Source: Pedococcus aerophilus
Lineage (GTDB): Bacteria > Actinomycetota > Actinomycetes > Actinomycetales > Dermatophilaceae
DNA: 64,000 nucleotides
Direction: 5' to 3'
Assembly: GCF_039532215.1 (NCBI RefSeq)
Contig: NZ_BAAARN010000001.1
Location: 1,721,942 to 1,785,941 of the forward strand
Every line of letters starts with the position of its first letter. Position 1 is the first letter of the stretch. A program made the position numbers and the translations under genes. Below, piece by piece: positions 8,711 through 64,000 of the stretch. Below the pieces are notes generated by a model. The model ran no database searches. It was not told where the DNA came from and saw only the letters and a list, made by a program, of their open reading frames with translations.

Positions 8711-9798
8711 GCGCGGTCCTCCGAGGTCGGGCGGGGGGCGTTCCCCCGCGGGTGCCAGCAGGCCACGACGTGGTCGAGCCGGCCCCGGGCAGCGTCCACA
8801 CGGACTGCCGCCGCCGGGGCCGCGTCCACCCGGGCCGCGTCCAGCGGGGGCGCGGACGTCCGGCACCGGTCGGTGGCTGCCGCGCAGCGATCAGCGAAGG
8901 TGCAGGCGTCCGGCTGCTCCGACAGGACGGGCACGAGGCCGGGGATCTCCTGGAGTCGGTGCGTCCCGGCGTGCCGTCCGGGCGTCGGCGACGCCGACAG
9001 CAGGCCGGAGGTGTAGTGGTGCTGGGGGTGGGCGAAGAGCTCGTCCACCCCGGCGCGCTCGACGACGCGGCCGGCATACATGACGACCACGCGGTCGGCG
9101 ACGTCGGCGATGACGCCGAGGTCGTGGGTGATCACGAGGATGCTCGTCCCGAACCGGTCACGCAGTCCGCGCAGGACGTCGAGGATGCCGGCCTGGACGG
9201 TGACGTCGAGGGCGGTGGTCGGCTCGTCGGCGACGAGGACCTTGGGCTGGCAGGCGACGGCCATCGCGATCATGACGCGCTGGCGCATGCCTCCAGAGAG
9301 CTGGTGCGGGTAGTGCTTGACGCGCTCGCGCGGGGAGGGGATGCCCACGACGCCGAGCAGCTCGACGGCTCGCTCCATCGCCTCGGTGCGGGACAGCTTC
9401 TCGTGGACCTGGAGGACCTCGGTGATCTGTCGCCCGACGGTGAGGACGGGGTTCAGGGAGGACATCGGCTCCTGGAAGATGTAGGCGATGTCCCGTCCCC
9501 GTGCCGCGCGCAGGACGTTCGGCTTGGCACCGACGAGCTCGGTCCCGAGCAGTCGCACGGATCCGTCGATCGTGGCGCTGCGGGGCAGCAGGCCGGCGAG
9601 GCTCATCGCGGTGACGGACTTGCCGCAGCCGGACTCCCCGACGATGCCGACGATCTCGCCCGGCGCCAGGGTCAGGTCGACCCCGTCGACGGCCGAGACC
9701 GTGCCGGACTCGGTGGCGAACCTGACCCCGAGGCCGGACACCTCCAGGACGGGAGCGGTGGTGGCTCCGGGTGCGGGCACGGTGGCGGTGGCGGTCAT
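8707..9798 (-). CDS. Peptide ABC importer ATPase, DppD/OppD type
   Basis: This 363-aa ATPase has Walker A GESGCGKS, signature [14 protein letters not shown], Walker [13 protein letters not shown] and the C-terminal CTFADRC motif of the oligopeptide transporter extension. The extension carries a low-complexity Ala/Val/Asp insert ([15 protein letters not shown]). The ATG at 9798 overlaps the permease stop as ATGA. A much longer open frame upstream is noncoding shadow. It pairs with the DppF-type subunit encoded next. Confidence 0.93.
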
Positions 9799-37893: not shown

Positions 37894-38498
37894 TACTTCT
37901 TCCCCCCTGGTTCGGGACGCCGGAGGGCGCCCTCGAGGATGACGTCGACGAGGTCCTGCGGTGTGGAGTCACCGTGGTGGAGCATCGGGTGGACGCTCGA
38001 GAGCGTGAGCATCCGCAGGTAGTTGACGACCTCGGTGGCCGGCAGCCGGAGCTGGTCGGCGTCGGCTCCGACGAGCGCGACGAACGCCTGGTCGACCGCG
38101 GTGTTGGCCTGCTCGCGTCGCGGGTCCTGCCCCTTGTGCGGCGGGCGCATGGGTCGGCCCGACGCCTGGAGGACGCTCATGAGCGAGAAGATGTCGCGCA
38201 GGTAGCCCTGCATGGTCGACACGGCGGCAGCGAGGCGTTCGCGCAGCGGCAGCGCGACGTCGATCTCGAGCAGCCGGGCGACGAGCACCTCGGTCTGGAA
38301 GGCGTCGTGGACGCAGGCTTCGACCAGCTCGTCCTTGGACTCGAACACCCGGAAGATCGTGCCCTCGGCGACGCCCGCCGCCCGGGCGATCTCCTTGGTG
38401 CTCACCGCACGCCCCTTGTCGCGCAGCAGTGGCACCGTCGACGCGATGATCGCGGCTCGACGGTCGTCGGGGGCCATGGCAGGGGCTCGGGGAGTCAC
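37893..38498 (-). CDS. TetR-family repressor of the ABC exporter operon
   Basis: This 201-aa protein has a TetR HTH at about 33-54 (STKEIARAAGVAEGTIFRVF). The GTG start at 38498 is supported by a promoter whose -10 box ends 6 nt upstream. It is cotranscribed with the two ABC genes. The operator at 38512-38531 lies in its own promoter, so it should repress the whole operon until a drug-like ligand binds. Confidence 0.88.
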   Translation of the reverse strand: MTPRAPAMAPDDRRAAIIASTVPLLRDKGRAVSTKEIARAAGVAEGTIFRVFESKDELVEACVHDAFQTEVLVARLLEIDVALPLRERLAAAVSTMQGYLRDIFSLMSVLQASGRPMRPPHKGQDPRREQANTAVDQAFVALVGADADQLRLPATEVVNYLRMLTLSSVHPMLHHGDSTPQDLVDVILEGALRRPEPGGKK

Positions 38499-51157: not shown

Positions 51158-51924
51158 GCGGCCCGGTCGAGGATGGCCCGGCTCCACCACCAGCCGAACA
51201 CAGCGAGGACCACGCCGACCACCAGGCTGGCGGTCGACCAGGTGGTGCCGAGGTACAGCTGGCGCGGACCGATGCCGCAGGCCAACCCGACGACGGGGCC
51301 GCTGAGCGGCAGGAGCGCGAGCACCGCCATGGACGCCCGCGGGCCGGCGGCGGCGCTGGCGAGGCGCTCCCTCGAACGCAGCCTCGCGCGCAGCACCTCC
51401 TCACTGGTCTGGAGGGCGTCGGCGAGCGGAGCCCCGGTGCGCTCGCTCAGGCTCCAGGCCCGCCCGACGAAGCGCAGGGCGCCGCTGTCGAGCTGGGCTC
51501 CGTGCCGGAGCCAGGTCTCGGAGACCGGCTCGCCGGCCGCCCCCGCGGCAACCAGCTCCTCCACCATCGGGGCGAGCAGCGACGAGTCCTGGACCGCAGC
51601 GGCCCCCGCCGCCAGGCTCGTCGTCGCAGGCACACCGGCACGCAGGGGTGCGGCCACCAGCCCGAGCAGGTCGGCCAGCGGGTCCTCGACCGCCATGACG
51701 TCCTTGGCCCGACGTCGAGCCCTCCACCCGGTCCTGCCGGCCTCCTCTGGCTCGGGATCGTGGGCCCGCCCGGCTCCACGACGCCGCGTCGGCCACAGCA
51801 GGACCGCGAAGACGGCCAGCCCGACGGTGAGCATGGTCAGTCCGAGCGTCACCGAGGTCGGCCCGCTGGTGGCGGCGGTCGGCCCGAGCAGGACGGTGGT
51901 CAGTGGGGTGGTCGAGGTGGTCAT
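51154..51924 (-). CDS. tadB: TadB-like type II/IV secretion membrane protein
   Basis: This 256-aa protein has an N-terminal helix (about 22-45), a GspF domain (DLLGLVAAPLRAGVPATTSL; WSLSERTGAPLADALQTSEE) and C-terminal helices (about 190-250). The ATG at 51924 overlaps the tadA remnant stop as ATGA. It pairs with TadC. Confidence 0.85.
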   Translation of the reverse strand: MTTSTTPLTTVLLGPTAATSGPTSVTLGLTMLTVGLAVFAVLLWPTRRRGAGRAHDPEPEEAGRTGWRARRRAKDVMAVEDPLADLLGLVAAPLRAGVPATTSLAAGAAAVQDSSLLAPMVEELVAAGAAGEPVSETWLRHGAQLDSGALRFVGRAWSLSERTGAPLADALQTSEEVLRARLRSRERLASAAAGPRASMAVLALLPLSGPVVGLACGIGPRQLYLGTTWSTASLVVGVVLAVFGWWWSRAILDRAA

Positions 51925-52268
51925 GCCGCCGACCCGAGCAGGCGCTGGAGTGCGGCCCAGCCAGGACCCTCGACGCGGGTCACCGTGTCGAGCGCCGGCT
52001 CGCAGACGACCGTGCCAGCGGCCCAGTGCAGGACGGACACGGAGGCCACCCGTCGTCGTCCGCCGACGCGTGCGACGTGGACCACGGCCTGCAGCGCCGT
52101 GGCCAGCTGCCGCTGCACCGCGTCGTGCGGCATCCCGGCAAGCGCGCCCAGGGCGTCGAACCGGGCAGGCACGTCCCGGGGCGAGTTGGCGTGGACGGTG
52201 CCGCAGCCCCCGTCGTGCCCGGTGTTCAACGCCGCCAACATCTCCCGGACCTCGGCACCACGCACCTC
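51921..52268 (-). pseudogene. tadA: 5'-truncated tadA (pilus assembly ATPase)
   Basis: About 115 C-terminal codons of the TadA/CpaF ATPase remain: EVRGAEVREMLAALNTG, CGTVHANSPRDVPARFDALG and the tail to LLGSAA. The similarity ends at about 52268, just before the Glu of the family's GEVRGAE motif. Walker A, most of the ATPase core and the start are absent. The open frame continues for 47 codons into unrelated repeat DNA. The pilus ATPase gene is therefore broken at this locus by the island insertion. Confidence 0.8.
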
Positions 52269-52313
52269 GTGCGGGTTTCGGAGGAAGTGACCGTGGCACG
52301 GAGCACGCGGTCT

Positions 52314-52412
52314 TGTAGGGACACTTCCCCGCGATTCGTCGCGCGGCCACGCTGCGGTGCTAGCCCGTCCCGTTAGGACACTTCTGGACGGGCAGTCCCG
52401 AAGGGACACTGC
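52314..52412 (+). repeat. Three GGGACACT-type repeats
   Basis: TGTAGGGACACTTCC (from 52314), TTAGGACACTTCTGG (52373-52387) and AAGGGACACTGC (52401-52412) share a GGRACACT core and the same orientation, next to the tadA junction. They look like transposase-binding repeats or remnant insertion-sequence ends. No gene is visible from 52269 to 52553. Confidence 0.5.
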
Positions 52413-52465
52413 ACTCCACGTCCCGGTGGCCCTGGGTCGCCCGGGACGTAGAGAGGTGGCGTCTG

Positions 52466-52481
52466 CTTACTGGGTGTGTCC
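52466..52481 (+). repeat. Left 16-bp inverted repeat
   Basis: CTTACTGGGTGTGTCC matches, with one mismatch, the reverse complement of 56198-56213. The pair brackets 3.7 kb holding five genes. Confidence 0.6.
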
Positions 52482-52553
52482 TGTTGACGCTCCCGAGCCG
52501 GCCAGACGCCTTTACCGGATCTGCCGATGAGCGGACTGTTGGATGCAGAGGGG

Positions 52554-53462
52554 TCAACCCAAGAGGTCCAGGTGCGGGTGAGCCTGTGGTGCATCTCGAG
52601 GTGCCGACGGTTCACGCGGTCCGGCGCGTTGTCCTTCGCGTTGGGCGGCGGCTCCGGCGAGCACTACGAGGGCGACGCCGATGCCTTGAGCGAACCTTGG
52701 GTGCTGGTGCAGGACCAGTAGCCCGAGCAGCACACCGATGGCGGGTTCGAGTGCCATAAGCGTGCCGAACGCGAGGTGGGTCATGCGGCGTAGGGCGAGC
52801 AGTTCCAGGGCGTAGGGCAGGACCGGTAGCAGCAGGGCCAATCCAGCCGTGGCGGCAAGAACTGGGAGCGTGATGTGCCCGGCGGCTTGCGGGATGCCGA
52901 CGGTGGCCGCGGTTGCTGCTGCTACGGGCACTGTCATGGACAGGCCGCCCAGGCCGGTGAAGCGGTCGCCGAGGCGCTGCGTCAGCAGGATGTAGGCGGC
53001 CCATCCGATGGCTGCCAGGGCGGCGCACGTCACCCCGATGGTGTTGACGCGGCCGTGCCACGGCTCGGTCAGCAGGACCACGCCGGCCAACGCCAGAGTG
53101 GGCCAAGCAAGTGCCCGACGCGAGTGACTGCCGATGGCGGCCACCGTCAGGGGCCCCAAGAACTCGATCGCGACTGACGTCCCCAGTGGGAGCCGTTGGA
53201 TGGCAGCCAGGAAGGCAACGGTCTGGACGCCGGTGCTGACGCCAAGGCCCAGGACCACCGGGATGTCGTTGCGGCCCAAGGTACGCAGGGGTGGTCTGGC
53301 GATGGCGATGAAGATGACCGCCCCGATGCTCAGACGCAGCCATGCGGTACCCGCCGGTCCAATGGCGTCCATGACGCCCAGTGACAGGGCGGAGCCGAGC
53401 TGGACCGACAGCATGGCACCCACGGCGAGCGTCCAGGCCGGGGTGGTGTGGCGGTGGGTCAC
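52554..53462 (-). CDS. EamA-family exporter (RhtA-like)
   Basis: This 302-aa protein has ten helices in two EamA repeats (GTAWLRLSIGAVIFI; ALAAIGWAAYILLTQRLG; LALLRRMTHLAFGTLMALEPA-like end). It is closest in look to RhtA threonine/homoserine exporters. The GTG start overlaps the upstream stop as GTGA. It is the last gene of a four-gene operon and probably exports an amino acid or analogue. Confidence 0.87.
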   Translation of the reverse strand: MTHRHTTPAWTLAVGAMLSVQLGSALSLGVMDAIGPAGTAWLRLSIGAVIFIAIARPPLRTLGRNDIPVVLGLGVSTGVQTVAFLAAIQRLPLGTSVAIEFLGPLTVAAIGSHSRRALAWPTLALAGVVLLTEPWHGRVNTIGVTCAALAAIGWAAYILLTQRLGDRFTGLGGLSMTVPVAAATAATVGIPQAAGHITLPVLAATAGLALLLPVLPYALELLALRRMTHLAFGTLMALEPAIGVLLGLLVLHQHPRFAQGIGVALVVLAGAAAQREGQRAGPREPSAPRDAPQAHPHLDLLG

Positions 53463-53764
53463 GCAGGGAGCCGGTCGTCGCCGTAGGTCGCCTTCACCTC
53501 GGTGACGACGATGCGGTACCCGTCGTACCAGCGGTGCACCTGGCTCTTGGCCTCCCTGTGAGTGGGGAACTTCGCCAGGTGTGCGAGGGCTTTCTGGTCG
53601 GTGAAGTAGTAGATGGCGTTGACCAGGCCGTGTTCTGGCTGGTGCCAGGTCTCGGTGCGGACGAAGCCGGGCAGGCTGCGGGTGTAGGTGTCGATTTGTG
53701 CGTCGAGGTCGTGGAAGTCGTCGTCGTAGGTGCCGGGCTTGAAGATGAACTGGACGCAGATCAT
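53459..53764 (-). CDS. Small monooxygenase-like (ABM/ferredoxin-like fold) protein
   Basis: This 101-aa protein has the beta-alpha-beta-beta pattern of ABM/YdhR-type proteins: MICVQFIFKPGTYDDDFHDL, GFVRTETWHQPEHGLVNAIY and FPTHREAKSQVHRWYDGYRI. No cofactor motif is expected in this family. The ATG overlaps the upstream stop as ATGA. Confidence 0.65.
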   Translation of the reverse strand: MICVQFIFKPGTYDDDFHDLDAQIDTYTRSLPGFVRTETWHQPEHGLVNAIYYFTDQKALAHLAKFPTHREAKSQVHRWYDGYRIVVTEVKATYGDDRLPA

Positions 53765-54513
53765 GAGAGCTCCGGTGGGTCGGTGGGCCGGGGTGCCGAT
53801 GCGTGGAGGAGCCGGTCGGTCACGTGCACGTCGGGGCCCAGGCGTCGAAGGTGGTCGGTCAGGTCGGTCGCTGCGGCACGCAGCGCGTCCTCGGTCATCG
53901 GCTCGAGGGCGTCGAGGATGAACACGGCATCGGTGGTGTCCTCGCCCAGAGCGGTGCGGCGGCCTTGGCGCCAGTTCCAGCGTCGGCAGGTCACGCCCAG
54001 GTCGTCGCACCAGACGACCTCGCGCGGCTCGGCGTGGTCGATGACGTCCGCACCATCCGCCGTGGTGTCGAACGGTTCGGTGCCCGTGGCTCGCAGCAGG
54101 CGCGGGCTGCCGACATAGCGGTCGAGGTCCTCGCCACCGATGGGCAGCTGGTGCAGGACGGAGATGGCGTTGTACACGTCGGTGAGCCGGTTGACTCGGG
54201 GTAGGCCGCTGGGCGCCCGCCGGGTGAGCGCTTCAAGGCTGTTGCGCGTGCGTTGCGGCTTCGCGCCGAAGGCTCGGTAGGCGTCGCGCCATGCCGCCAC
54301 GTGCGGCAACTCCTCAACCGTGTTGGCCGCGAGACGGGCAGTGGCGGCCGCTTCGGCTCGGCTCAGGAGGGCGTCGCTGACTTCGTCGCTCGTACCGGGG
54401 GTCAGGCCCTGAGCGACCACGAGCAGCGCACGGTAGTCAGGGCGAAGCTCGGCAATCTCGGTGCTCACTGTGGCCTCGGCGAGGAAGGCCGATACTGGCC
54501 GGCGCTCAGGCAT
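53761..54513 (-). CDS. B3/B4 tRNA-binding domain protein
   Basis: This 250-aa protein matches stand-alone B3/4 domains related to the editing region of phenylalanyl-tRNA synthetase beta: WRDAYRAFGAKPQRTRNSLE, LPRVNRLTDVYNAISVLH and EVVWCDDLGVTCRRWNWRQG. Such proteins may edit mischarged tRNAs. It overlaps the XRE-cupin gene by 8 nt. With an EamA exporter it suggests handling of a non-standard amino acid. Confidence 0.82.
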   Translation of the reverse strand: MPERRPVSAFLAEATVSTEIAELRPDYRALLVVAQGLTPGTSDEVSDALLSRAEAAATARLAANTVEELPHVAAWRDAYRAFGAKPQRTRNSLEALTRRAPSGLPRVNRLTDVYNAISVLHQLPIGGEDLDRYVGSPRLLRATGTEPFDTTADGADVIDHAEPREVVWCDDLGVTCRRWNWRQGRRTALGEDTTDAVFILDALEPMTEDALRAAATDLTDHLRRLGPDVHVTDRLLHASAPRPTDPPELS

Positions 54514-55111
54514 GGGACACCTCGTTGTGCGTGCCGGAGCCAACCCCTGGTTCGAACACCGCAAGGGAGAACGACGCCACAGAATCGCCGTGGTTGGCGT
54601 ACCCATGCTCGACATCACCGGGAAACGACACGGCGTCGCCCGGGTCCAAGTCGTACGTCTTTTCGCCGACCGTCAGGGTGACGGTGCCGGTGCGCACCTG
54701 CAGAAGCTCTTTGGTCCCTGACGCGTGTGCCTCACTGACATGACGGTCGCCTGCGGCCAGGGTCCAGTCCCACAACTCGACCACGTCCGGCGTCTGCGTC
54801 CCAGCAACGAGCAGGCCCTGGCCACCGTTCTCGCCCGTCCACAGAGCCGCGCCCTTCCCCGCCCGGGTCACCGTGACCGGTCTCGGTGCCGGTGGCGCAA
54901 CGAGTGCCGGCAACCCGATGCCCAAGGCATCACTGACACGCAGCAGCGTGCCCACGCTGGGATTTGCAACACCCTGCTCCACGTTCACCACAGCGCGCCG
55001 ACTCACCCCCGCCGAGGCCGCCAGCTGGTCCAGGGTCCAGCCGCGCCCCTGCCGCTCCTGCCGCACGCGCACCCCGATTGCCGAAGCCAAACTCGCCGTC
55101 TGTTCATCCAC
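54506..55111 (-). CDS. XRE-family regulator with cupin domain
   Basis: This 201-aa protein has an HTH_3 (about 10-65: LDQLAASAGVSRRAVVNVEQ) and a C-terminal cupin (about 120-190: GTKELLQVRTGTVTLTVGEK and DAVSFPGDVEHGY). The GTG at 55111 is preferred over the one at 55129 because a -10 box (TACGCT) ends 6 nt upstream and two dyads lie over the promoter. It is the first gene of the four-gene operon and likely its regulator. Confidence 0.85.
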   Translation of the reverse strand: MDEQTASLASAIGVRVRQERQGRGWTLDQLAASAGVSRRAVVNVEQGVANPSVGTLLRVSDALGIGLPALVAPPAPRPVTVTRAGKGAALWTGENGGQGLLVAGTQTPDVVELWDWTLAAGDRHVSEAHASGTKELLQVRTGTVTLTVGEKTYDLDPGDAVSFPGDVEHGYANHGDSVASFSLAVFEPGVGSGTHNEVSHA

Positions 55112-55113
55112 AA

Positions 55114-55139
55114 GTGCAGCGTACTGCACTCACAGTGCA
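55114..55139 (-). promoter_or_regulatory. Two overlapping dyads over the XRE-cupin promoter
   Basis: GTGCAG-CGTA-CTGCAC (55114-55129) and TGCACT-CAC-AGTGCA (55125-55139) are perfect inverted repeats. The -10 candidate TACGCT (55123-55118 on the minus strand) lies inside the first. This fits autoregulation by the XRE-cupin protein. Confidence 0.6.
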
Positions 55140-55242
55140 TCCAGGGTTGGTCTGCCTCTGGGACGAACGTCCGCTCATGCCGCCGTGCGGGTCAATGGCT
55201 CAGGTCGAGGCAGTTGGGAATCAGGCGTGCCAATCTGACCTG

Positions 55243-56088
55243 ATGGAGATCATCTCTACGGTCGAGGCGTGGCGGGAAATGGCGGAGCTGCCCAACGCCG
55301 ACGACCGGGCCGCTGCGTGGGTCACGAACTACGAGGCGACGTTTCCATCAGTCTTCGAGGTGTACTACAGCGCGTGGGGCAGCCCTGCCAAACGAGGAGA
55401 CGCCGCGTCCCAGGCGCATGGACTGATTGATCAGATCCTGGCGGCTGAGGGCCGCGCGCGCCACCTCGTGGCTCAGGCGGAGAACGACTTCCGAGAGGCC
55501 GGACTACTCCAGGAGGAGCTGTCCGTGGTCCTGCTCGTGGGTGCTCACACCTCCAACGGCTGGGTCGCGGAGCACAAGGGCCAGCGTTCGCTCTTTCTCG
55601 CACTCGAGTACCTCGGCACGCCATCTTTTGACGACCTGCTTGTCGTCCACGAACTCAGTCACGTGGTCCAGGCGCAGCTGTCTCCAGCAACCGGTGCCCG
55701 CACGTACGCGTCCTCGCTGGCCGTCATGGTCGAAGGGGCAGCGACCGCAACCTCTCGGGTGTTGCGGCCGGGGCACACGGACAGCGCGTACCTGTGGATG
55801 GACGACGACCACCAGGAATGGCTGAACAACTGTGACGCCAGCGCCGCCGCCATCGCTTCGCTGCTGCTGCGGCACGCCGACACCCCTGACGACGACGGAG
55901 CGGTGGCACCGCTGTTCCGGAATCGACCGGGCCACGGCATCCCCGCTCGTGCCGGCTACTGGGCCGGGGAACGGATCGCTCGGGCGATGCTGCAGGACGG
56001 TACTGACCTGCGTGAGTTGCTCAGCGTGAAGCCCCCTGAGGCCCGCACTCGGGTGATTAAGTGGGCGACCGCAACGCACAGTCCCTGA
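55243..56088 (+). CDS. Putative zinc metallopeptidase with HELSH motif
   Basis: This 281-aa protein has LLVVHELSHVVQAQL (His136, Glu137, His140), an HExxH site, followed by MVEGAATATSRVL with a possible third ligand Glu, and GYWAGERIARAML. This pattern is that of DUF2268-like predicted Zn proteases. No signal peptide is seen. It is divergent from the XRE-cupin operon and a lone gene. A CAATCT hexamer ends 6 nt before the ATG. Confidence 0.7.
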   Translation: MEIISTVEAWREMAELPNADDRAAAWVTNYEATFPSVFEVYYSAWGSPAKRGDAASQAHGLIDQILAAEGRARHLVAQAENDFREAGLLQEELSVVLLVGAHTSNGWVAEHKGQRSLFLALEYLGTPSFDDLLVVHELSHVVQAQLSPATGARTYASSLAVMVEGAATATSRVLRPGHTDSAYLWMDDDHQEWLNNCDASAAAIASLLLRHADTPDDDGAVAPLFRNRPGHGIPARAGYWAGERIARAMLQDGTDLRELLSVKPPEARTRVIKWATATHSP

Positions 56089-56197
56089 AGAAGCGTCCGG
56101 ATTTGCCGCGTTCCGCGCGGTTCGCGAGTGCGGTCAGGCTGCGAGCGCGTCTGTGCCACGACGGGCCCGGTGACAACCGACTCCCCCACGGCGATGG

Positions 56198-56213
56198 GGA
56201 CACACCCAGTTAG
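56198..56213 (-). repeat. Right 16-bp inverted repeat
   Basis: GGACACACCCAGTTAG is the inverted partner (15/16) of 52466-52481. It ends across the stop codon of abiEii. Confidence 0.6.
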
Positions 56214-57292
56214 AGCAGGTTCGCGTGCTGGCGCACGAGGGCCGCGACGGCACGCAGGTCGGGGTAGTCGCCGAAGCCGAGGTTGCGCATCTCGCGTGCG
56301 TACTCGCTCTGAGCCCGCTTGACGACCTTGTTGCCGAAGGCGGGCGAGTCCGCGAAGCCAGTCTCCGGGCGCATGTTGTCGGTGGGGCGCCGGACCGCGG
56401 CGCTCTCGGCTGCGGCGGTCTTCGCGTACCTGCTCACCAGGTCTTGCTGGGCGGTGAGGGACTGGATGACGGCTGGAGAGCTGAGCAGCTGGTGGACGTC
56501 GTAGTAGTGGCGCGCGTGGTAGCCCGTGCCCATGGTGGGGTCTGCGCTCATGGCGGTGCCGAGGTCATGGAGGATGCACAGCTTGTCGACGAGGGTGCGT
56601 TCGGCGGCGAGGACGTCGATGGAGAACGGTTGTAGTTCCTCGTAGTCCCCGAGTGCGAGCTGGCCTGTCATGGCTGCCCAGTGGCTCAGCATGGAGCGCA
56701 GCTGATGGCTGGCGTTGGGGTCTGGGGTGCCCATGCGGACCAGCTCGAGGATGACGCCGTCCTTCATCTGGCCGGCGAGTGGGGCTGCAGCTTCGGGCCG
56801 GGGGTAGGTGAGGCGGAAGCCTCGTTTGGTGCCTGTTCGCGAGGTCCCCCAGGACTCCTGGCTGATGCCGAGCTCGGTGGCGACACCTGCGGCGACCTGC
56901 TTCATCAGGGTGTCGACGCGGGAGTTCCCCAGCTTGAACTCGGGCGCCGTGTAGTTCTTGCCGGCCTTCTCGGCTCCGGGGGTCGTGCTGTCCGGCTGTT
57001 TGGAGATGTCGAGGTAGACGTCGATGTCTTCACTGAACCGATCGATGAGGCCGTACGCCTTGCTGAGGCTGGTGCCGCCCTTGAACACGGCGCGGACGTT
57101 GACCGGGTACGTGTTCTGTGACGGGGCTGCCTGCTTGTGGCCCCTCGCCAGGATCCGGAGTGCTTCGGTGACCCAGAAGTCCTTCTCGATGATGTTCGCG
57201 CTGATGCGCAGGCCCTGCGTTGCGTACCAGTCGGCGGCCTGGGCGCACAGGACGCCCAGGCCGTCGATGTCGGCGCGTAGCTGGTCTGCCAT
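56210..57292 (-). CDS. abiEii: AbiEii-type nucleotidyltransferase toxin
   Basis: This 360-aa protein has the nucleotidyltransferase motif FKGGTSLSKAYGLIDRFSED followed by IDVYLD (GG-TSLSK and ED-ID metal ligands), IIEKDFWVTEAL upstream, and AAERTLVDKLCILHD later. AbiEii toxins arrest growth during phage infection, by nucleotide transfer. The ATG at 57292 overlaps the antitoxin stop by 1 nt (TGATG). Its TAA lies on the right inverted repeat. Confidence 0.88.
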   Translation of the reverse strand: MADQLRADIDGLGVLCAQAADWYATQGLRISANIIEKDFWVTEALRILARGHKQAAPSQNTYPVNVRAVFKGGTSLSKAYGLIDRFSEDIDVYLDISKQPDSTTPGAEKAGKNYTAPEFKLGNSRVDTLMKQVAAGVATELGISQESWGTSRTGTKRGFRLTYPRPEAAAPLAGQMKDGVILELVRMGTPDPNASHQLRSMLSHWAAMTGQLALGDYEELQPFSIDVLAAERTLVDKLCILHDLGTAMSADPTMGTGYHARHYYDVHQLLSSPAVIQSLTAQQDLVSRYAKTAAAESAAVRRPTDNMRPETGFADSPAFGNKVVKRAQSEYAREMRNLGFGDYPDLRAVAALVRQHANLL

Positions 57293-57933
57293 CAGGCGCG
57301 GACTGGATTCGCTGCGGTGGTGATGTCGTGTGCGAGACGGTTGGCGAGCTTGCGGGCTGCGGTGTGCCGCTCTCGGCGCGCGACGGTGCGGACGGCGTCG
57401 AGGTCGAGTTCGCCGTTGGTGACGAGCTCGCGGACTCGGTCGACCAGACCGGTCCAGGTGTCCTCTGCGAACCGCGGCCACTCACGGAGGACTTCCAGGA
57501 CGGCGACCTCGAGGTCGCTCAGGCCGCGGCGGGCGACGCCTGAGCGGCTGGTGAAGTGCACGCCGGCGAAGTCCTTGGGAGCTCGTCCGGGGACGCTGAC
57601 CTCGGTGGTCGTGGGGACCTGGGTGGTTAGGCCGAGCGCGCGTGCTGCGCTGTACCCGGACGGTCCGACGCCACTGTCGTAGCCGGCAACCTTCGCCACT
57701 TCCCGGGCGACGCGGTACGGGTCGGGTCGGGTCGTGCCGAACTTGGTCCGCTTGCCCTTGTAGTAGAGCCCGCGCCGGACCAGGACGAGGTCCTCGTCGC
57801 GGTGGGTGCGGTGCATAGCAGCGTTGACTGCGCCCTCGTGGCCGAGCTCGGCAACAAGGTCGCGCATGTGGACGAACTCGCCCACTGGTGTGCTGTGGAC
57901 GCGCTCTCGGACTAGTTCAACGACGGCACTCAT
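57292..57933 (-). CDS. abiEi: AbiEi-type antitoxin (DUF6088-like)
   Basis: This 213-aa protein has an N-terminal winged helix (about 15-75: GEFVHMRDLVAELGHEGAVN, RRGLYYKGKRTKFG), then a domain with GPSGYSAARALGLTTQVP typical of AbiEi/DUF6088 antitoxins. AGGAGG precedes the ATG at 57933. AbiEi repressors bind inverted repeats in their own promoter, and such a repeat is present upstream. Confidence 0.85.
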   Translation of the reverse strand: MSAVVELVRERVHSTPVGEFVHMRDLVAELGHEGAVNAAMHRTHRDEDLVLVRRGLYYKGKRTKFGTTRPDPYRVAREVAKVAGYDSGVGPSGYSAARALGLTTQVPTTTEVSVPGRAPKDFAGVHFTSRSGVARRGLSDLEVAVLEVLREWPRFAEDTWTGLVDRVRELVTNGELDLDAVRTVARRERHTAARKLANRLAHDITTAANPVRA

Positions 57934-57952
57934 GACCCCTCCTTGTAATGAA

Positions 57953-57965
57953 AGTGTATCACTTA
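57953..57965 (-). promoter_or_regulatory. abiE promoter with palindromic operator
   Basis: AAGTG-TAT-CACTT is a perfect dyad overlapping a -10 candidate TACACT (57959-57954 on the minus strand), about 20 nt before the antitoxin start. The area is AT-rich compared with its surroundings. Confidence 0.6.
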
Positions 57966-58016
57966 TCTGTCCGCGCACCTTGGCTCGTCGCAACCGGGCT
58001 GGAAAGGCGGGGGCGC

Positions 58017-59108
58017 TCAGGAGGGTGCCGGGGGGTGCAGTTGGGGCAGCGGCCCGAGGGGTCGGGGTCGGGGCCCGGGTGGGTGGGTGTCGGGGTATCC
58101 GGGGAGTTCGTCGAAGAGGCCGGCGACGGGTTCGTGGGGTAGGCAGCCGGCGAGGTGGCGGCTGGTGCGTAGGCGTGCGAGGGCTGGTTGGTGGTCTTGG
58201 TGGACTGGGATGTCGTGTCCGCGGAGGGTGATGTGGCTGCCGTCGTGGGGGATGTCGGCGAGGGTGGTGTCTTCGGCGTCGGGGTGGGTTCGGCGGAGGG
58301 CGTCGAGGCCTGGGGTGTAGAGGTCTCGGCCGGCGGCGGTGAGGTGCCAGCGGTCGGTGACGGTGGTGTCGGGGTGGTTGGTGTAGTCGGTGAGGCGGGC
58401 GCGGGCGGCGGTTGGTGTGGCGTCGCCGGTGGTGAGGGCGCGGCGGAGCTTGGCGAGGAGGCAGGCGACGCGACCTGCCTCGGTGTGGTCGTCGCAGGCT
58501 GTCGGGAGTGGCGCTGCCTCGGTGAGTGGGGTGTGCCACCAGCGGGGTGGTGATGGTGGGCAGGTGGGGTTTGCCGGGGTGCGGGTGGCCCACCATCGGG
58601 CGAGGTCGTCGGGGTGGGTGAGGTGTGCGGTGCTGGTGGCCCAGTCGAGTACGTCGGCTGCGTGGGCGTCGCGGGTCAGACCGGTGCCGCGGCTGCTGGG
58701 TCGGTCGGCGACGTCGATGAGGAGCCACAGCTGGGCGGCGGCGAGGACGGCCAGTTCGTGGAGTTCGGTCAGGGCGGTGGTGGGCAGGGTGGAGGCGTCG
58801 TCGATGACGATGTGGCGCACGGGTCCGTGGATCAGGTGGGTCAGGGGTCGTAGGAGGTGGCTGTCTCCAGTGGTTCGTGGTGGGCGGAGGCCGACGACGC
58901 CGGTGGCGTCGAGGAGGTCGTTGCTGAGGGTGGGGATGGGTTCGCGTTCGCCGAAGGGTGCGGGGTGTACCCATGCTGCGTCGTCGTGTCGGCCGATGGT
59001 GGTGCGCAGGGTCCGGACGAGGGTGCGCATGTGCCTGGGGTCGACGAGGGCGGTGATGGGTCCGGGTGCGAGTGGGTGCGCGCCGCGGGGCGTGGCGGGC
59101 TGTGTCAT
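58017..59108 (-). CDS. Unknown protein of the transposition operon, AAA-like without P-loop
   Basis: This 363-aa protein is not recognised. It shows a Walker B-like HIVIDDASTLP, then a helix and LWLLIDVADRPSS, which recalls sensor 1 of AAA+ ATPases, but no GxxGxGKT motif. The C-terminal half is rich in His, Thr, Asp and Pro and has CLPHEPVAGLFDELPGYPD. The ATG overlaps the ATPase stop as ATGA. It occupies the place where TniQ/TnsD-type target selectors are often encoded, but lacks visible zinc-finger Cys. Confidence 0.7.
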   Translation of the reverse strand: MTQPATPRGAHPLAPGPITALVDPRHMRTLVRTLRTTIGRHDDAAWVHPAPFGEREPIPTLSNDLLDATGVVGLRPPRTTGDSHLLRPLTHLIHGPVRHIVIDDASTLPTTALTELHELAVLAAAQLWLLIDVADRPSSRGTGLTRDAHAADVLDWATSTAHLTHPDDLARWWATRTPANPTCPPSPPRWWHTPLTEAAPLPTACDDHTEAGRVACLLAKLRRALTTGDATPTAARARLTDYTNHPDTTVTDRWHLTAAGRDLYTPGLDALRRTHPDAEDTTLADIPHDGSHITLRGHDIPVHQDHQPALARLRTSRHLAGCLPHEPVAGLFDELPGYPDTHPPGPRPRPLGPLPQLHPPAPS

Positions 59109-59947
59109 CGGCGTCGGGCGGCCCTGCTTGTTGCGGGTGCGGCGGTGGTCAGCTGTGGGGTGGTGCCCGTGATGGTGGCGATCGCGGCGCGGGCGTCGTC
59201 GCGGGTGATGGGACCGGTTCGGCCGAAGTCGTTGGCCAGGGCGAGGAGGAGCTTGGACCAGGCGCGCCAGGACCCGTGGGCGTACTCGCGGTCGATGGAG
59301 GCGAGAAGGTCCGGGTCGGTGTGGGTGGATGTGCCGGGGTGGTGTTGGGCCAGGAGCTGGCGCATCTTGTCCCAGGTGTGGTGGTGCAGTGCGATTCGTC
59401 GGTCGATGCGGGTGGCGACGGACGGGACCTTGTCCAGGTGGGTGAACAGGTCGGTGCCGGCGAACACGATGGCGAAGCGGGGGTACGGCTGGGTCCAGAG
59501 CCATCGCAGGGACAGCAGTTCGGGGTCGCCGAGGAACTGGGCTTCGTCGACGACCAGGAGGGTGGGGACGGCGGCGAGGTAGTCGCGGGTGATGTTCTGC
59601 AGGGCGCGGGCTGTGCCGGTGGGGCGGGCTCCGGTGACGGCGGTGGCGATTTCCTCCCACTGCGCTCGTTCGGTGGCGCGTCGCGGGAGGGTGGCAATGG
59701 CCGTGTTGACGTCGGACACGGCGGCGACCGCGTTCAGCAGGGTGGACTTGCCGGACCCGTAGGGGCCGGAGATGGCGGTGACGGCGCCACGGTCCAGGGC
59801 GGACGGCATGCCTGCGGCGACTTGGCGCATCTGGGCGGTGATGACCAGGCGCCCGCCGGTGGGGATGTGTCGGCTGGTGAAGTCGACGGGCAGGTGTTCT
59901 TGCGCGTGTTCGACGTTCCACGCGTGCGGGTGCCGGTCAGGGAGCAT
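59105..59947 (-). CDS. AAA+ ATPase of the TniB/TnsC type
   Basis: This 280-aa protein has Walker A GPYGSGKST (61-69), Walker B LLVVDEAQFLGD (about 130-141), sensor 1 AIVFAGTD (about 159-166) and a likely Arg finger near RIDRR. TniB/TnsC ATPases regulate target choice and activate the transposase. The gene overlaps the transposase stop by 11 nt and the next gene by 4 nt. Confidence 0.87.
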   Translation of the reverse strand: MLPDRHPHAWNVEHAQEHLPVDFTSRHIPTGGRLVITAQMRQVAAGMPSALDRGAVTAISGPYGSGKSTLLNAVAAVSDVNTAIATLPRRATERAQWEEIATAVTGARPTGTARALQNITRDYLAAVPTLLVVDEAQFLGDPELLSLRWLWTQPYPRFAIVFAGTDLFTHLDKVPSVATRIDRRIALHHHTWDKMRQLLAQHHPGTSTHTDPDLLASIDREYAHGSWRAWSKLLLALANDFGRTGPITRDDARAAIATITGTTPQLTTAAPATSRAARRR

Positions 59948-61718
59948 CGTGGTCACCGCCGACGTCGCGCACCGGGCGTGGGTTGAACATGTCGGCGAGC
60001 GTGTTCGCGACGGCGTCCTCGTCGTCAAGGTTCGAGACGTCGGCGGGTAGGACTTCGCCGGTGGTCAGGTCCACGCTGACGTTCCCGACGGCGAGGCGGG
60101 CGCTGGCGGGGGTCCACGGGTCTTCCTGGGCGGCCGCGTCGGCGAGACGTTCGGCGACCTCGGCCTGCGCGCGGGCGGCGTCAACCTGCGCGGCTTGCGC
60201 GCGCGGGTGGGCGACGCGGTCCTTGACGAACCGTTCGCGGGCGACGCGGTCCCGGTGGACGGCTTCGATGTCGGCGAGGTCGGCGTCGTCGCGGGGGGTG
60301 AGGAGTCCGAGGAACCGCCCCTGGGCGTCATAGGCGTAAAGGACGTCGGGGTTGAGGAGCTGGCGCAGGTGGACGGTCTGCCCGGGGTTGGCCGCTGATG
60401 CGAGCTGCGGTGAGAGCCAGTACCGGTTTTGCCAGGCGATGCCGCGGGTGGGGTCGTACTTGCGGGTGCCAACTTCGGGGGCGACGTCTCCTTCGTCGGC
60501 GGCGGACAGGTCGTGCCCGCGGAAGACGGTGCCGGCCTCGAGGTGGTCGGCGTACTCCTGCAGGCGGGTGCGGCCTCGTCGCGGCCCGGATGTGTAGGGG
60601 GTGTTGATGTGGGTGAGGAACCAGGTTTCGACCTCCGCCAGGACGGTGTCGTAGGGCAGGACACCGTGGTGGAGGCGGTTGCCTGCGCGGTCGGTCCAGC
60701 CGCGGCGGGAGCCGGGCCCGTCGGCGAGGTGCCGCAGCAGGGACTGGTGCATGACCTCGTGGTCACCGTTAGCTTGCGGCTGGTGGGAGGGCACGGGGGT
60801 CAGGCCGATGCCGAGGCGGCGGGCGGCTGCCGCCCCGGTCTCACCGAGGAATGACCCGCCTTGGTCGGACGTCAGGTGGCGGGCGACGCCGGTGACGCGG
60901 ACCTCGCGTCCGGGGTCGTCGGGGTGGGTGACGGTGTACCCAATGGCGGCTGCTGCGAGGACGACGCCGGTGTCGGTGCCGGTCGCTGCGCGGGGCAAGA
61001 CCACGTAGGACAGGGGCAGCCCGGAGCAGCGGTCTCGCACGATGAGGACCTTCGGCTCGACCTGGAGCCCGTAGTGGTCGGCGGTGACCTTGAGGTCGTA
61101 CTCGTCGATGGACCAGGACTCGTTGACGCCGTCACGGCCGGTCAGGGGGAACGTCGCCTCGATCTTGCGACCGGCGCTGGCTCCGTACCGGGCGCCGGCC
61201 CGTACGGGTGCGGCCACGTTGGCGTACGCGGTGTACAGGGTGGACAGGCCGTAGTTGGACAGGCGGTGGGTCGGGTCGGCGCGGAACTTATCGAGCGCTG
61301 CGCGGATGGTGGTGTGGCGGGCGACGAACGCGATCTCGTCGGGGGTGAGCTGGACCTTGTTCGGCTCCGCGTACCGGTACAGGTGCCGCGGCAGGACGAT
61401 GGGCGCAGTGGTGGTGGCGGCGTGCCGGTGCGCGGCCTGGACCTGCCGGTTGAGCTCCGCGGCCCACCAGCGGTTCACGGTCCGGGCGGTGACGCCGGCG
61501 GCGCGTGCGACGGCGGCCTTGTCGGCGGAGGTGACTTTGCCGGTGATGGCCAGGACGTCCTTGAGGTCGGTGATGGTCTTGGTCCGGGTCAGGGTGTGTG
61601 CGCGGTTGCCGTGGTTGCCGAGGCGGTGCCCGTCGGAGCGGCGCGGCGCGGTTTCGGCGCTGCGTCCTTCGCGTGCGGCGGCGAGGGCGAAGATGCGCGC
61701 GCCGGCGTTGCCGCTCAT
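59937..61718 (-). CDS. DD(35)E transposase of the TniA/TnsB type with Mu C-terminal domain
   Basis: This 593-aa protein has an N-terminal HTH (about 65-90: AAGVTARTVNRWW) and an rve catalytic core with D205 (WSIDEYD), D285 (LTSDQGG) and E321 (NGDHEVMHQSLL). Exactly 35 residues lie between the last two. A Mu-type beta-barrel follows (about 425-475: GIAWQNRYWLSP and VLYAYDAQGRFLG). The charged C-terminal tail probably contacts the ATPase. The ATG at 61718 overlaps the upstream gene as ATGA. Confidence 0.92.
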   Translation of the reverse strand: MSGNAGARIFALAAAREGRSAETAPRRSDGHRLGNHGNRAHTLTRTKTITDLKDVLAITGKVTSADKAAVARAAGVTARTVNRWWAAELNRQVQAAHRHAATTTAPIVLPRHLYRYAEPNKVQLTPDEIAFVARHTTIRAALDKFRADPTHRLSNYGLSTLYTAYANVAAPVRAGARYGASAGRKIEATFPLTGRDGVNESWSIDEYDLKVTADHYGLQVEPKVLIVRDRCSGLPLSYVVLPRAATGTDTGVVLAAAAIGYTVTHPDDPGREVRVTGVARHLTSDQGGSFLGETGAAAARRLGIGLTPVPSHQPQANGDHEVMHQSLLRHLADGPGSRRGWTDRAGNRLHHGVLPYDTVLAEVETWFLTHINTPYTSGPRRGRTRLQEYADHLEAGTVFRGHDLSAADEGDVAPEVGTRKYDPTRGIAWQNRYWLSPQLASAANPGQTVHLRQLLNPDVLYAYDAQGRFLGLLTPRDDADLADIEAVHRDRVARERFVKDRVAHPRAQAAQVDAARAQAEVAERLADAAAQEDPWTPASARLAVGNVSVDLTTGEVLPADVSNLDDEDAVANTLADMFNPRPVRDVGGDHDAP

Positions 61719-63082
61719 GCGGACACCGACTCGTCGCCAGCCCCGCTCACCAAGCCCTGGTCGAGGTGGTCGAGGTGGTCGAGGTGCTCGAGGTGGGCGC
61801 GCTGGTCCTTGACGAGCGTGACGCCGACGTTGTCGATGCCCAACCTCATGGGCTTCTTCTTCTTGGTCTTCATGGTGCTGTTCTTCTTCGTGGTCATGTT
61901 CTTGTTCGTGTTGCTGCGCTTCGACTCGTCGACGTCGCTCTCGGAGTTCTCGTCCGCGTTCTTGTTGCGCGCCTTGTCGAGGTCCTCCCCGGGCACCTTG
62001 TCGACGTCCTTGACGATGTCGATGTCGAGGTTGTTGTCGACGACGTTGACGACCAGGTCGCTGACGCAGATGCGCGTCGAGGTCGGGGTTGCCAGCGGGA
62101 GACGGGCAGCTGGTGCGCACCACTGGCAGCCTCCGACGCGGTGGTGGCTGCCGATGAGTGGCAGGTCGCGATCGCGCCCATCGGCGTCGGTGACGGTGGT
62201 GAAGGCGGGCACGAAGTGGACACCGGCGTTGGGTGCCCGGTGGGAGATGACGCGCACCCCGAGGATGGCGCGGCGGGCGGCGCCGGGCCCGTCAAGGTCG
62301 TCCAGCGGGGCCAGGTAGTCGGCCATGTCGCGCAGGTCGGAGGCGACCTTGCCGGCTACCCAGCGGTCGCGTTCGATGACGCCGGCCCGGGAGGCCGTGT
62401 AGACCCGGTCGAGCAGAAGGCCCCGCCCCGGTCCGTCCGGGTGGGTCCAGACGACGCGGGGTCGGCGGACGAAGCTCACGGCGAAGCCAGCGCGACCGGC
62501 GAACGCGGCAGCCGGGCCGGAGCCGGCGTCGTCGAGCTCTCCGCACAGCTCGGCGTACCACTTGCGCAGGTGGTTGCGGGGCGTGAACTCCAGGTGGCTG
62601 GGGTGCTCCCACGTCAGCAGGTGACGGGCTGCGGCCTCGGCGAACATGGGCCCGCGCCGGTCCAGTCCGGTGCCGGCGTGACGCGGCGTCAGGGCCTGCA
62701 GGTAGTGGGTCAGGGTGCGCGCCTGCTCGTCCAGGCTGGCCGGAAAGCCCGAGCTGAGGATGTCGTGGGCGAGCTCCTCGGCCAGCAGGATGGCCGCCAG
62801 GTCCCGGGTGGAGGGCCGCGCGTTCAGGTCCGGTCCGCTGCTCGTGCGGGACGCGCTGGTCGCGTGCCGGGTGATCGCGACCCGTCCGGGAAGGTGGGCA
62901 GCCTGTGCCGCCTGCGTCGTCGGGCGGATCTGGTCGGCCTGGGCGTAGGTGCTGGCCCGCTGAAGGCGCATCGAGTGGCTCATCGCGAGACCGGGGTTGG
63001 CTCGAAGGGACGTGGGGAAGTCTCGACCGAGTTCGTCGCGGAACGCCGCAGGCGTGTGGCGGGGTGTGGTTTGGGTTGGCAT
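61715..63082 (-). CDS. Unknown protein, first gene of the transposition operon
   Basis: This 455-aa protein is not recognised. The first 320 residues look globular (LAAILLAEELAHDIL, LRKWYAELCGELDDAG) and include a Cys pair, GGCQWCAP. A disordered Asn/Lys/Asp/Ser-rich stretch of about 70 residues and a heptad-like LEHLDHLDHLDQ tail follow. It takes the position of TnsA in Tn7-like operons, but no clear nuclease motif is seen. The ATG at 63082 is preferred over one at 63166, which would lie inside the promoter dyad. Confidence 0.7.
   Translation of the reverse strand: MPTQTTPRHTPAAFRDELGRDFPTSLRANPGLAMSHSMRLQRASTYAQADQIRPTTQAAQAAHLPGRVAITRHATSASRTSSGPDLNARPSTRDLAAILLAEELAHDILSSGFPASLDEQARTLTHYLQALTPRHAGTGLDRRGPMFAEAAARHLLTWEHPSHLEFTPRNHLRKWYAELCGELDDAGSGPAAAFAGRAGFAVSFVRRPRVVWTHPDGPGRGLLLDRVYTASRAGVIERDRWVAGKVASDLRDMADYLAPLDDLDGPGAARRAILGVRVISHRAPNAGVHFVPAFTTVTDADGRDRDLPLIGSHHRVGGCQWCAPAARLPLATPTSTRICVSDLVVNVVDNNLDIDIVKDVDKVPGEDLDKARNKNADENSESDVDESKRSNTNKNMTTKKNSTMKTKKKKPMRLGIDNVGVTLVKDQRAHLEHLDHLDHLDQGLVSGAGDESVSA
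61761..61796 (-). repeat. 9-bp tandem repeat, four copies, coding
   Basis: TCGAGGTGG is repeated four times (third copy with one change). On the minus strand it encodes the LEHLDHLDHLDQ tail of the 455-aa protein. Confidence 0.8.
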
Positions 63083-63156
63083 GGCCGCACCTGTGCCGGG
63101 AGGGTCGAAATCCACAGGTCGCGATACATGTTTCTGCCGTCCCGACGGCTGTGTCT

Positions 63157-63170
63157 GTCGTTGCAACGAC
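63157..63170. promoter_or_regulatory. 14-bp palindrome between divergent genes
   Basis: GTCGTTGCAACGAC is a perfect palindrome. It is centred in a longer imperfect dyad with outer arms near GTCCCGACGGC (63139-63149) and GCCGTTGGAAC. It lies between the transposition operon and the HTH gene, so it may be an operator or a transposase-binding end. Confidence 0.5.
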
Positions 63171-63225
63171 GCTGAACGCCGTTGGAACTACAGGGATTAA
63201 CTCTTCTGCTGGCAGGGTCACCCCC

Positions 63226-63669
63226 GTGAGCACGCAGGCGGGAGTCCCGGAGCGGGGAACCGCTCTGGACGGGCTCAAGCCGCGCGACTTCGCCCGCGAC
63301 CCGAACGCATGGCCGACCAGCCCCCTTCACATCCCGGCCGAGCTGCGGGGGCGAGGCCTGACGACTGAGCAGCTGCACGCGCACGTCGGGGCGATGGAGG
63401 AGCTGCGCCAGCTCGCACTCGCCTACGTCACCTACATCGGCCGGTCGGGCAAGAGCAACCAAGACGTGGCGCAGCGGCTCGGGGTGAGCCTGGGCGCGCT
63501 GCGGAACCTGCGCTCCGGCGCGGCTCTGCCCAGCGCCCGCACGTTGCTGCTGCTGCAGTACCTCATCCCGTCGCCCGAGCAGATGGAGGTCAGCGACTAC
63601 CGCGACTCCCTGACGCGCCGCCAGGACAAGCTCGCACAGCGAGAAGGTCGGACGCCACCCTCCCGCTAG
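63226..63669 (+). CDS. HTH-domain protein, 147 aa
   Basis: The C-terminal part has an XRE-like HTH (about 78-104: SNQDVAQRLGVSLGALRNLR). The N-terminal part has DPNAWPTSPLHIPAELRGRG and a helix AMEELRQLALAYVTYIG. The GTG at 63226 is chosen because sequence before it looks noncoding, though the frame is open further upstream. It is divergent from the transposition operon and a plausible regulator of it. Confidence 0.65.
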   Translation: MSTQAGVPERGTALDGLKPRDFARDPNAWPTSPLHIPAELRGRGLTTEQLHAHVGAMEELRQLALAYVTYIGRSGKSNQDVAQRLGVSLGALRNLRSGAALPSARTLLLLQYLIPSPEQMEVSDYRDSLTRRQDKLAQREGRTPPSR

Positions 63670-63797
63670 AGGCGCCCCAGGCCGGACGAGGGGCCCCCCC
63701 TGGAGCATGGTCGAGCGCACCTGCGGGTGGCGTGTAGTGGTCTTCACGGGTCACCGTCCGACTGTTGCGTGTCTCGTTCCCAGGGGTGCACCATAGT

Positions 63798-63813
63798 TCG
63801 AACACATGTTCGA
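63798..63813 (+). promoter_or_regulatory. LexA (SOS) box
   Basis: TCGAAC-ACAT-GTTCGA matches the actinobacterial LexA consensus TCGAAC(N4)GTTCGA exactly. It extends to GTTCGAAC arms at 63796-63815. The ATG of the next gene (63806) lies in its spacer. Confidence 0.7.
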
Positions 63814-64000
63814 ACACAAGGGGGTGCACGGGTTGGGTGGACGGGGCGCTTCGAGGGGTCTGACCGAGCCGCACATCCCGGTGGGCCGGCACCCTGACGG
63901 CGCCTGGTTGTTCGCGCCGGTCGGGTCGATGCTCGTCGTGGCGTCCGGCTCCAGGGTGGTCTGCCACGGCTGTGGCGAGGCGTTGGAGGCGATCTCGAGG
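63806..64000 (+). CDS. Possible MucR/Ros-like zinc-finger protein, cut by window edge
   Basis: There are 65 codons from the ATG at 63806 to the edge. WLFAPVGSMLVVASGSRVVC followed by HGCGEALEAISR resembles actinobacterial MucR-type proteins, which have CxxCG then a His pair. Only the first Cys pair is visible. The start lies inside a LexA box, so SOS control and a leaderless mRNA are suggested. Confidence 0.5.
   Translation, partial: MFEHKGVHGLGGRGASRGLTEPHIPVGRHPDGAWLFAPVGSMLVVASGSRVVCHGCGEALEAISR

Follow-up and report, generated by a model that had tools for sequence, protein, structure and literature searches.

Transposons of the Tn5053/Tn402 group are built from tniA, tniB, tniQ and tniR and target res sites, and bacteriophage Mu makes a 5-bp target duplication. 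According to the consulted part of PMC8649781, the target selector TnsD/TniQ is present in 73-97% of Tn7-like elements per clade, and the TnsC tree of Faure et al., as given in the available part of PMC10293859, has TniQ/TnsD ubiquitous in the Tn7 branch. The same partial source reports that insertion of Tn6022 into comM depends on TniQ together with TnsF and falls in a 10-bp stretch of the Walker-B motif. Here, we describe a four-gene transposition operon in a 64,000-nt stretch of the Pedococcus aerophilus genome (the window; position 1 is the start of this stretch, and positions above 64000 are concatenated coordinates beyond it). The operon very probably belongs to a DDE transposon of Tn7/Mu type with tadA, a Tad-pilus motor gene, as its specific target. 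The surprise lies in strict targeting without a detectable TniQ, in two conserved proteins that match no known family, and in the catalytic codon of a pilus-motor gene as the landing site. On sequence evidence, the ends of the element, its end arrays, the target duplication, the same site in five members, a single orientation and the TnsB/TnsC homology are established.

Read along the minus strand, the operon runs g1-g2-g3-g4, and all four reading frames are open. It comprises the unassigned first gene g1 (61715-63082), the TnsB-type DD(35)E transposase g2 (59937-61718), the TnsC/MuB-type ATPase g3 (59105-59947) and g4 (58017-59108), which may encode a degenerate AAA/TnsC-like protein without Walker A, followed by an unassigned C-terminal domain. 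Consecutive genes overlap by 4 (g1/g2), 11 (g2/g3) and 4 nt (g3/g4), confirming the observation of an earlier note on this DNA that overlaps of 4-11 nt tie a transposase and an ATPase to two unassignable proteins. Divergent from the operon is a helix-turn-helix (HTH) gene, g0 (63226-63669, plus strand; in-frame GTG at 63226, start codon provisional), and beyond it a MucR-type zinc-finger gene, the proposed tadA recognition factor, begins at 63806 on the plus strand and runs past 64000 to 64474 in concatenated coordinates. The operon is only the core part of a 25,375-bp transposon that extends from 52270 to 77644 (13,644 bp past the window end). The portion within the window (52270-64000, minus strand), with the operon side at 52270, belongs to an element with exact ends, CGAGG on both sides and flanking tadA halves.

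Relatives of this operon were recovered in two steps, and genomes and loci other than the window's own (G000) carry G and L labels below. A g2 scan of genome contigs gave two Nocardioides loci (L003 and L004), both with the four genes in order, and a three-member profile then gave G851, G1008 and a distant relative in G679. In all five genomes of the close family (G000, G670, G671, G851 and G1008), g0 and g1-g4 keep an identical order, a conservation that excludes a chance grouping of the four genes. Pairwise identities are 36-43% for g1, 46-59% for g2, 40-59% for g3 and 42-52% for g4, and 29-37% for g0, with one g0 pair at 69%.

Mapping of the ends by occupied and empty sites, as the earlier note had proposed, yielded exact boundaries and a 5-bp duplication. 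Besides the G000 element, exact ends were mapped for those in G851 (30,577 bp) and G1008 (26,392 bp), and all three begin and end 5'-TGCGG ... CCGCA-3', that is, TG...CA. The target duplication is CGAGG in G000 and GGAGG in G851 and G1008; in G671, CGAGG is read at both junctions across two contigs, so that a 5-bp duplication accompanies all four elements for which both junctions are available. In G000, the copy on the tadA 3' side occupies 52265-52269 (CGAGG on the tadA strand) and the second lies beyond the far end. Over their outermost 30 nt, the two ends agree at 18 (G000), 27 (G851) and 27 (G1008) positions. Copies of GACACT or GAAACTC gather at both ends as inverted end-repeat arrays, with 6 of 8 copies in G000, 9 of 11 in G851 and 6 of 6 in G1008 within 260 bp of an end, and the elements fall into two end-motif subtypes. 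The right-end array of G000 (52270-52410) combines the TGCGG terminus with GGACACT at 51, 108 and 136 bp from the end. Such arrays are putative transposase-binding repeats of the kind found in Tn7-like transposons. Separately, a small gene beside the far end (76943-77440 in concatenated coordinates, locus L010) is common to the three complete elements at 31-42% identity and has no Pfam match.

The insertion point is the same in every case. A TIGR03819 search places the break in tadA at position ~261-265 of the family model in G000, G851, G1008 and G671. The 5' and 3' parts of tadA flank the operon in G000 (3' part at 51921-52269, minus strand, TIGR03819 positions 261-339), G851 and G1008; the halves lie on separate contigs in G671, and G670 offers the 3' half only. 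Every available junction falls at this one tadA site (5/5 genomes), and in all five the operon is on the tadA strand with g4 facing the tadA 3' part, giving one orientation. The earlier suggestion that the element has its own target-site logic is borne out by this shared site and by the 5-bp duplications. The duplicated bases span the GAG codon of VVGEVRG, and in intact TadA this glutamate stands 70 residues past the lysine of GSGKT. In CpaF, as described in the available part of PMC12019362, K287 contacts the nucleotide and E357 is the Walker-B residue; because the 70-residue spacing from lysine to glutamate equals that of K287/E357, the interrupted codon can be assigned to the Walker-B glutamate. 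The insertion would centre on the Walker-B glutamate codon and disrupt the Tad motor gene, with defence genes presumably riding along as cargo. In a side observation, G670 also has two partial tadA-family matches ~5 kb apart at G670:C8:2935020-2940432, one of them with internal stop codons.

Empty sites are at hand within the genus. Uninterrupted tadA above the family cut-off occurs in 8 of its 11 genomes (the window's own counted among the 11), and the remaining three are G000 and G048, where the gene is split, and G300, which has two adjoining tadA matches. When the G000 flanks are joined with one copy of the duplication, they align across the junction in 8/8 intact congeners at 75-78% identity. 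The duplications track each host's own codon (CGAGG or GGAGG).

A shared site and orientation in 5/5 genomes could in principle reflect a single ancient insertion inherited vertically, in which case the shared site would say nothing about targeting; some recurrence of cargo, namely an AbiEii-like gene in G000 and G851 (45% identity), points the same way. The distribution argues otherwise. In the family of the Nocardioides relatives, matches were found in 5 of 341 genomes, these being four carriers (two of them the seeds) and the distant G679, and the genus survey gave 1 of 11, the window's own genome. G000 is absent from the Nocardioides-family hits and so presumably belongs to another family. 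Broader g2 searches found at least 1 of 396 genomes in the order (own only), at least 2 of 296 in the class (own plus one match read as an unrelated large protein) and at least 2 of 396 in the phylum (own plus one 126-bp match). The class, order, phylum and G670-family searches scored 3-4 candidates per genome, and their counts are lower bounds for that reason. No element match appeared in plasmids, phages or viral contigs. The tadA-element family appears rare in these shallow surveys. Together with this sparse occurrence, mostly different cargo, duplications that follow the host codon, two end-motif subtypes and congeners with empty sites leave vertical inheritance from one insertion very improbable.

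Slightly less probable still is an island mobilised by a different recombinase, with the operon carried along as a passenger. Varied cargo and an insertion sequence (IS)-like transposase within the elements would suit such an island, but 5-bp duplications accompany ends of the transposase type, the operon is what the elements share as a core, and a Pfam scan of 19 G000-element proteins (a set that does not cover all open reading frames, ORFs) found no resolvase or integrase family. The scan agrees with the earlier note, which had seen no resolvase.

The identity of g2 and g3 was examined with family searches, solved structures and two TniQ-bearing elements (G048 and G891) that served as yardsticks, their genes being named by eye. 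As a check, the yardstick TnsB matches TnsB structures (E 1.5e-05), and a three-row TniQ profile matches only TniQ structures (four sequences, best E 1.2e-04); the first yardstick TniQ has no NCBIfam match at 1e-05. The catalytic triad of g2 (D206, D286 and E322) forms DD(35)E and is invariant in five aligned rows. Family searches with g2 itself give weak matches (IS481, E 2.2e-06; PHROG transposase, E 1.7e-04) and none in Pfam. The earlier note had read g2 as a DD(35)E transposase with a Mu C-terminal barrel; the first part stands, whereas the barrel reaches only E 0.23 in one of five close members, is not significant in g2 itself and becomes significant only in distant relatives (L013, E 2.3e-15; L102, E 3.3e-07). 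Against the yardstick TnsB, g2 with one distant relative reaches a probability of 84.5% (E 6.9e-06), and the TnsB of the wider family described below reaches 98.3% (E 1.7e-14). For g3, the TniB/TnsC-type assignment proposed earlier holds up well. It matches AAA_22 in Pfam (E 2.3e-11) and the PHROG 'DNA transposition protein' family (E 3.7e-14). On its own, g3 finds only other P-loop proteins among solved structures, such as ABC transporters (best E 0.0016), while MuB (E 6.7e-10) heads the hits of a profile built from six rows (five relatives plus a distant one), in which several entries for RecA, midasin and ABC rank ahead of TnsC (E 8.7e-05). Compared with the yardstick TnsC, g3 has a probability of 89% (E 2.3e-06), rising to 93% (E 2.8e-07) with the distant relative. 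By profile, then, the TnsB-type transposase and TnsC-family ATPase characteristic of Tn7-like transposons are both significantly present. In mechanistic terms, g2 would bind the repeats at both ends and join them to target DNA, and g3, as a TnsC-like ATPase, would link g2 to the target complex.

The remaining two genes resist assignment. Neither g1 nor g4 has a significant family match in Pfam, NCBIfam, PHROG or PADLOC, and against the yardstick TniQ or TnsA both stay at or below 0.1% probability (at or below 0.2% when TnsC is included among the comparisons). The five-row g1 profile and the six- and 11-row g4 profiles find no TniQ structure, although the three-row yardstick TniQ profile does. 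A TniQ hidden Markov model (HMM) run against six-frame ORFs of the elements hits only its own source genes; this test is insensitive, because a TnsB HMM built likewise also misses g2. Thus the statement of the earlier note that no TniQ/TnsD target selector is seen is upheld by families, yardstick profiles and structure profiles of g1 and g4, and the profile searches it proposed for these two genes matched no TniQ or TnsA. Its placement of g1 and g4 in the 'TnsA and TniQ places' is right as a matter of gene position only. AlphaFold models from three-row alignments are too poor to use (predicted local distance difference test, pLDDT, 46 for g4 and 37 for g1). Two candidate identities were set aside: g1 as TnsA or TniQ is unsupported by yardstick and structure profiles, and a by-eye reading of the g4 C-terminus as a degenerate tyrosine recombinase found no support in solved-structure profiles or Pfam and was dropped. 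A metal site may be formed in g1 by H281, H289, H314, C319 and C322, residues that do not vary across five rows. The end of g1 (61715-62080) encodes a long Lys/Asp-rich low-complexity tail, which its four relatives lack. As for g4, a segment that resembles Walker B, AAA_22 matches that are weak and confined to 3 of 11 members (best E 6.5e-04) and a weak alignment to TnsC (E 0.9) point to a possible TnsC-like protein without the ATP-binding loop.

These negative searches bear on a simpler account, in which a Tn7-like transposon of the ordinary kind has a TnsA (g1) and a TniQ (g1 or g4) too diverged to be recognised. Gene positions would fit, as would the finding that 5/6 distant loci encode a PD-(D/E)XK-like protein where g1 would stand, although the g1 motif alignment to it (E 0.32) is not significant; the profiles are also shallow, and the TnsB HMM from the same source misses g2 as well. 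The absence of any Pfam or NCBIfam TniQ/TnsA match, the yardstick values and the failure of g1 and g4 profiles to find the TniQ structure that a three-row profile finds make this account improbable. Of the features of Tn7-like transposons, a TnsB-type transposase, a TnsC ATPase, end arrays and a 5-bp duplication are present, TniQ/TnsD is not found, and at the TnsA position g1 lacks a TnsA match while in the wider loci that place is taken, by eye, by a PD-(D/E)XK-like gene. Since TniQ occurs in 73-97% of elements per clade, its absence lowers the likelihood of Tn7-like membership without removing it.

What, then, selects tadA? Outside the four genes, the MucR-type zinc-finger gene beyond g0 (PF05443, E 6.3e-09 in G851) is the leading candidate for target recognition. 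A MucR-like gene is present in 5/5 close elements, as is a small HTH gene (one pair aligned, 70%). Among four elements, MucR-like identity is 60-67% in six pairs, exceeding that of g1-g4 in every pair, and this high conservation across both end-motif subtypes would fit a reader of a constant tadA sequence. Of 335 Nocardioides-family genomes, the four carriers have near full-length copies and three more hold fragments. The zinc-finger protein would recognise the conserved DNA encoding RPDR(L/I)VVGEVRG, a role to which we give slightly less than even odds, and g4, TnsC-like but lacking the ATP-binding loop, would fill the adaptor place usually held by TniQ, for which the odds are about even. The reverse assignment, in which g4 itself is the selector, its C-terminal domain reading tadA (dnaB or nrdJ in relatives) and its N-terminal domain docking on g3, is unlikely. 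In its favour, g4 is the next gene after TnsC, both in the five close elements and at the wider loci (the latter by construction, having been found through a g4-like gene), and the C-termini of g4-like proteins are strongly divergent. Yet in elements with the same target the MucR-like protein (60-67%) is more conserved than g4 (42-52%), and g4 is common to elements with different neighbours, as fits an adaptor.

The g4 family extends beyond tadA. The g4-like gene of G679, used as a query, matched 10 of 197 genomes, one of the matches being G671's own g4 (E 8.5e-04). Five further loci (L098-L102) were examined and, with L013, make up six wider loci; G704, G672 and G687 were left out. The order TnsB, TnsC, g4-like, HTH recurs in 5/6, L100 having no ORF call for TnsC. 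Profiles link the wider loci to the tadA family for TnsC/g3 (E 1.6e-28), TnsB/g2 (E 5.1e-25) and g4 (85%, E 6.3e-06). The gene preceding TnsB shows an E...D...ExK pattern in 5/6 loci, which we take by eye to be that of a PD-(D/E)XK nuclease; a short g1 motif aligns with it without significance (E 0.32). The element appears to begin just after the end of dnaB in L098 and L101, and just after that of a B12-dependent ribonucleotide reductase gene (nrdJ) in L013 and L099. Exact 8-base repeats lie within 150 bases past the stop codon in L013 and L101; the same test was empty in L098 and L099, where imperfect repeats are visible by eye. The 15 kb of L101 hold five copies of TGTCAGT, all within 120 bases of the stop. 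The far ends were not found within the fetched stretches; site-specific insertion of the dnaB- and nrdJ-adjacent elements is likely. In L098 (G996), TnsB is read in two overlapping frames (9127-10732) and may be broken.

With no TniQ or TnsA match for g1 or g4 and with the gene order conserved elsewhere, the possibility raised in the earlier note of a distinct transposon lineage gains support: the element is real, site-specific and departs from known Tn7-type transposons. More tentatively, it may represent a third Tn7/Mu-type branch apart from TniQ-dependent elements, in which g4, as a second TnsC-like protein lacking the ATP-binding loop, replaces TniQ as adaptor and exchangeable DNA-binding proteins set the homing site (MucR-type for tadA, others for dnaB and nrdJ), forming a modular, TniQ-free family in Actinobacteria. 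Site-specific machinery without a detectable TniQ makes it directly testable what else guides TnsC.

Several observations weigh against parts of this account. Firstly, without the distant relative g2 scores only 6.7% against TnsB (E 0.0054), and the yardstick TnsB HMM finds g2 in no element. Secondly, direct comparison of g4 with g3 or TnsC is not significant, the ATPase reading of g4 is weak (AAA_22 in 3/11, best E 6.5e-04), and its AlphaFold model has a pLDDT of 46. Thirdly, what favours MucR as selector is conservation and association only. Fragments of MucR turn up elsewhere too, both within the tadA islands of G048 and G891 and in two genomes with intact tadA (G751 and G756), and G1008 has a second weak MucR match (E 2.6e-07). 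Finally, G670 lacks a tadA 5' half and has its MucR-like gene on a different contig. Two side observations concern the same gene. In G670, the MucR-like and small HTH genes lie on a separate 10.6-kb contig (L074, contig C5), which hints at an assembly break or a rearrangement. In genomes free of the element, MucR-like C-terminal-half fragments were located at L075 10386-10658, L076 9749-10018, L077 2-235 and G048 37909-38163 (concatenated).

The cargo of the G000 element includes, all on the minus strand, AbiEi (57292-57933; PADLOC, E 2.1e-52) and AbiEii (56210-57283; PADLOC, E 1.8e-53), an HTH-cupin regulator (54506-55129), a B3/4-domain protein (53761-54618) and an EamA transporter (52554-53462). 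Locus L010 adds a protein kinase resembling PADLOC kinases, and a pPIWI-associated nuclease is predicted among the cargo. The defence cargo suspected in the earlier note is supported by the AbiEi/AbiEii and kinase matches. G1008 carries a type III restriction enzyme-like protein. A few cargo genes are common to G851 and G1008.

Disruption of tadA may itself matter to the element. The part of PMC8467076 consulted reports the Micrococcus luteus TadA1/CpaF cluster as essential for transformation and pilus assembly, and mobile elements that disable transformation are described in the available part of PMC4774983. Given the M. luteus role, the present element could be an actinobacterial counterpart of such transformation-disabling elements, with the caution that tadA-like paralogues coexist with the split copy in the genomes examined. 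By analogy with elements that target comM, it is conceivable, though doubtful, that disrupting tadA also keeps natural transformation from removing the element.

Like Tn5053/Tn402, the element combines a DDE transposase and a TniB-type ATPase in one operon, and the ATPase of a distant relative matches Pfam TniB (E 7e-12); unlike them, it has no detected TniQ or resolvase (among the 19 proteins scanned) and targets a chromosomal gene. It resembles Mu (MuA, MuB) in its 5-bp duplication and in that the best solved structure for the g3 profile is MuB, but Mu inserts near-randomly, whereas these elements occupy one tadA site in 5/5 genomes and are 25-31 kb long with defence cargo (no search was made for phage structural genes). 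The g4-family elements at dnaB and nrdJ (L098, L101, L013 and L099) share the TnsB-TnsC-g4 order, homologous by profile, but they sit past a stop codon rather than inside a gene and have a different HTH gene after g4. The six wider loci further differ in the PD-(D/E)XK-like gene before TnsB (5/6) and in that no MucR-like gene was found in the 15-20 kb fetched from each.

The TniQ-bearing Tn7-like elements of G048 (L041-L044) and G891 (L075, L084-L086) also target tadA, with 5-bp duplications (GCGGC in G048; GGCGG in G891, by eye) and repeats near their ends, by eye. They differ in inserting ~18 codons downstream of the present site, in having two TniQ-like genes and a TnsA-like gene (by eye), in their TGTC or TGTA ends and in their lengths (57,851 bp in G048, ~57 kb in G891). 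Between the two, orientation in tadA is opposite and the machinery is 30-42% identical. Thus, tadA is a landing gene for Tn7-type elements, and no published Tn7-like element in tadA or cpaF was found in the open literature (subscription papers and supplements lay outside the search); in the part of PMC12915292 consulted, the mention of tadA is unrelated to that paper's actinobacterial Tn7-like element. The nearest precedent is Tn6022 (TnsABC-TniQ-TnsF-TnsE), which, as described in the available part of PMC10293859, is alike in its TnsB/TnsC-type machinery, in its target, the Walker-B region of an ATPase gene, and in its target duplication. Its TnsF, however, joins zinc fingers to an inactive tyrosine-recombinase part and works beside TniQ, while the present element targets tadA, has no TniQ found, and its g4 family shows no Phage_integrase or recombinase match in solved structures or Pfam (TnsF itself was not compared). 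That comM in Tn6022 and tadA here are both struck at Walker-B suggests that conserved catalytic codons in ATPase genes may be favoured landing sites.

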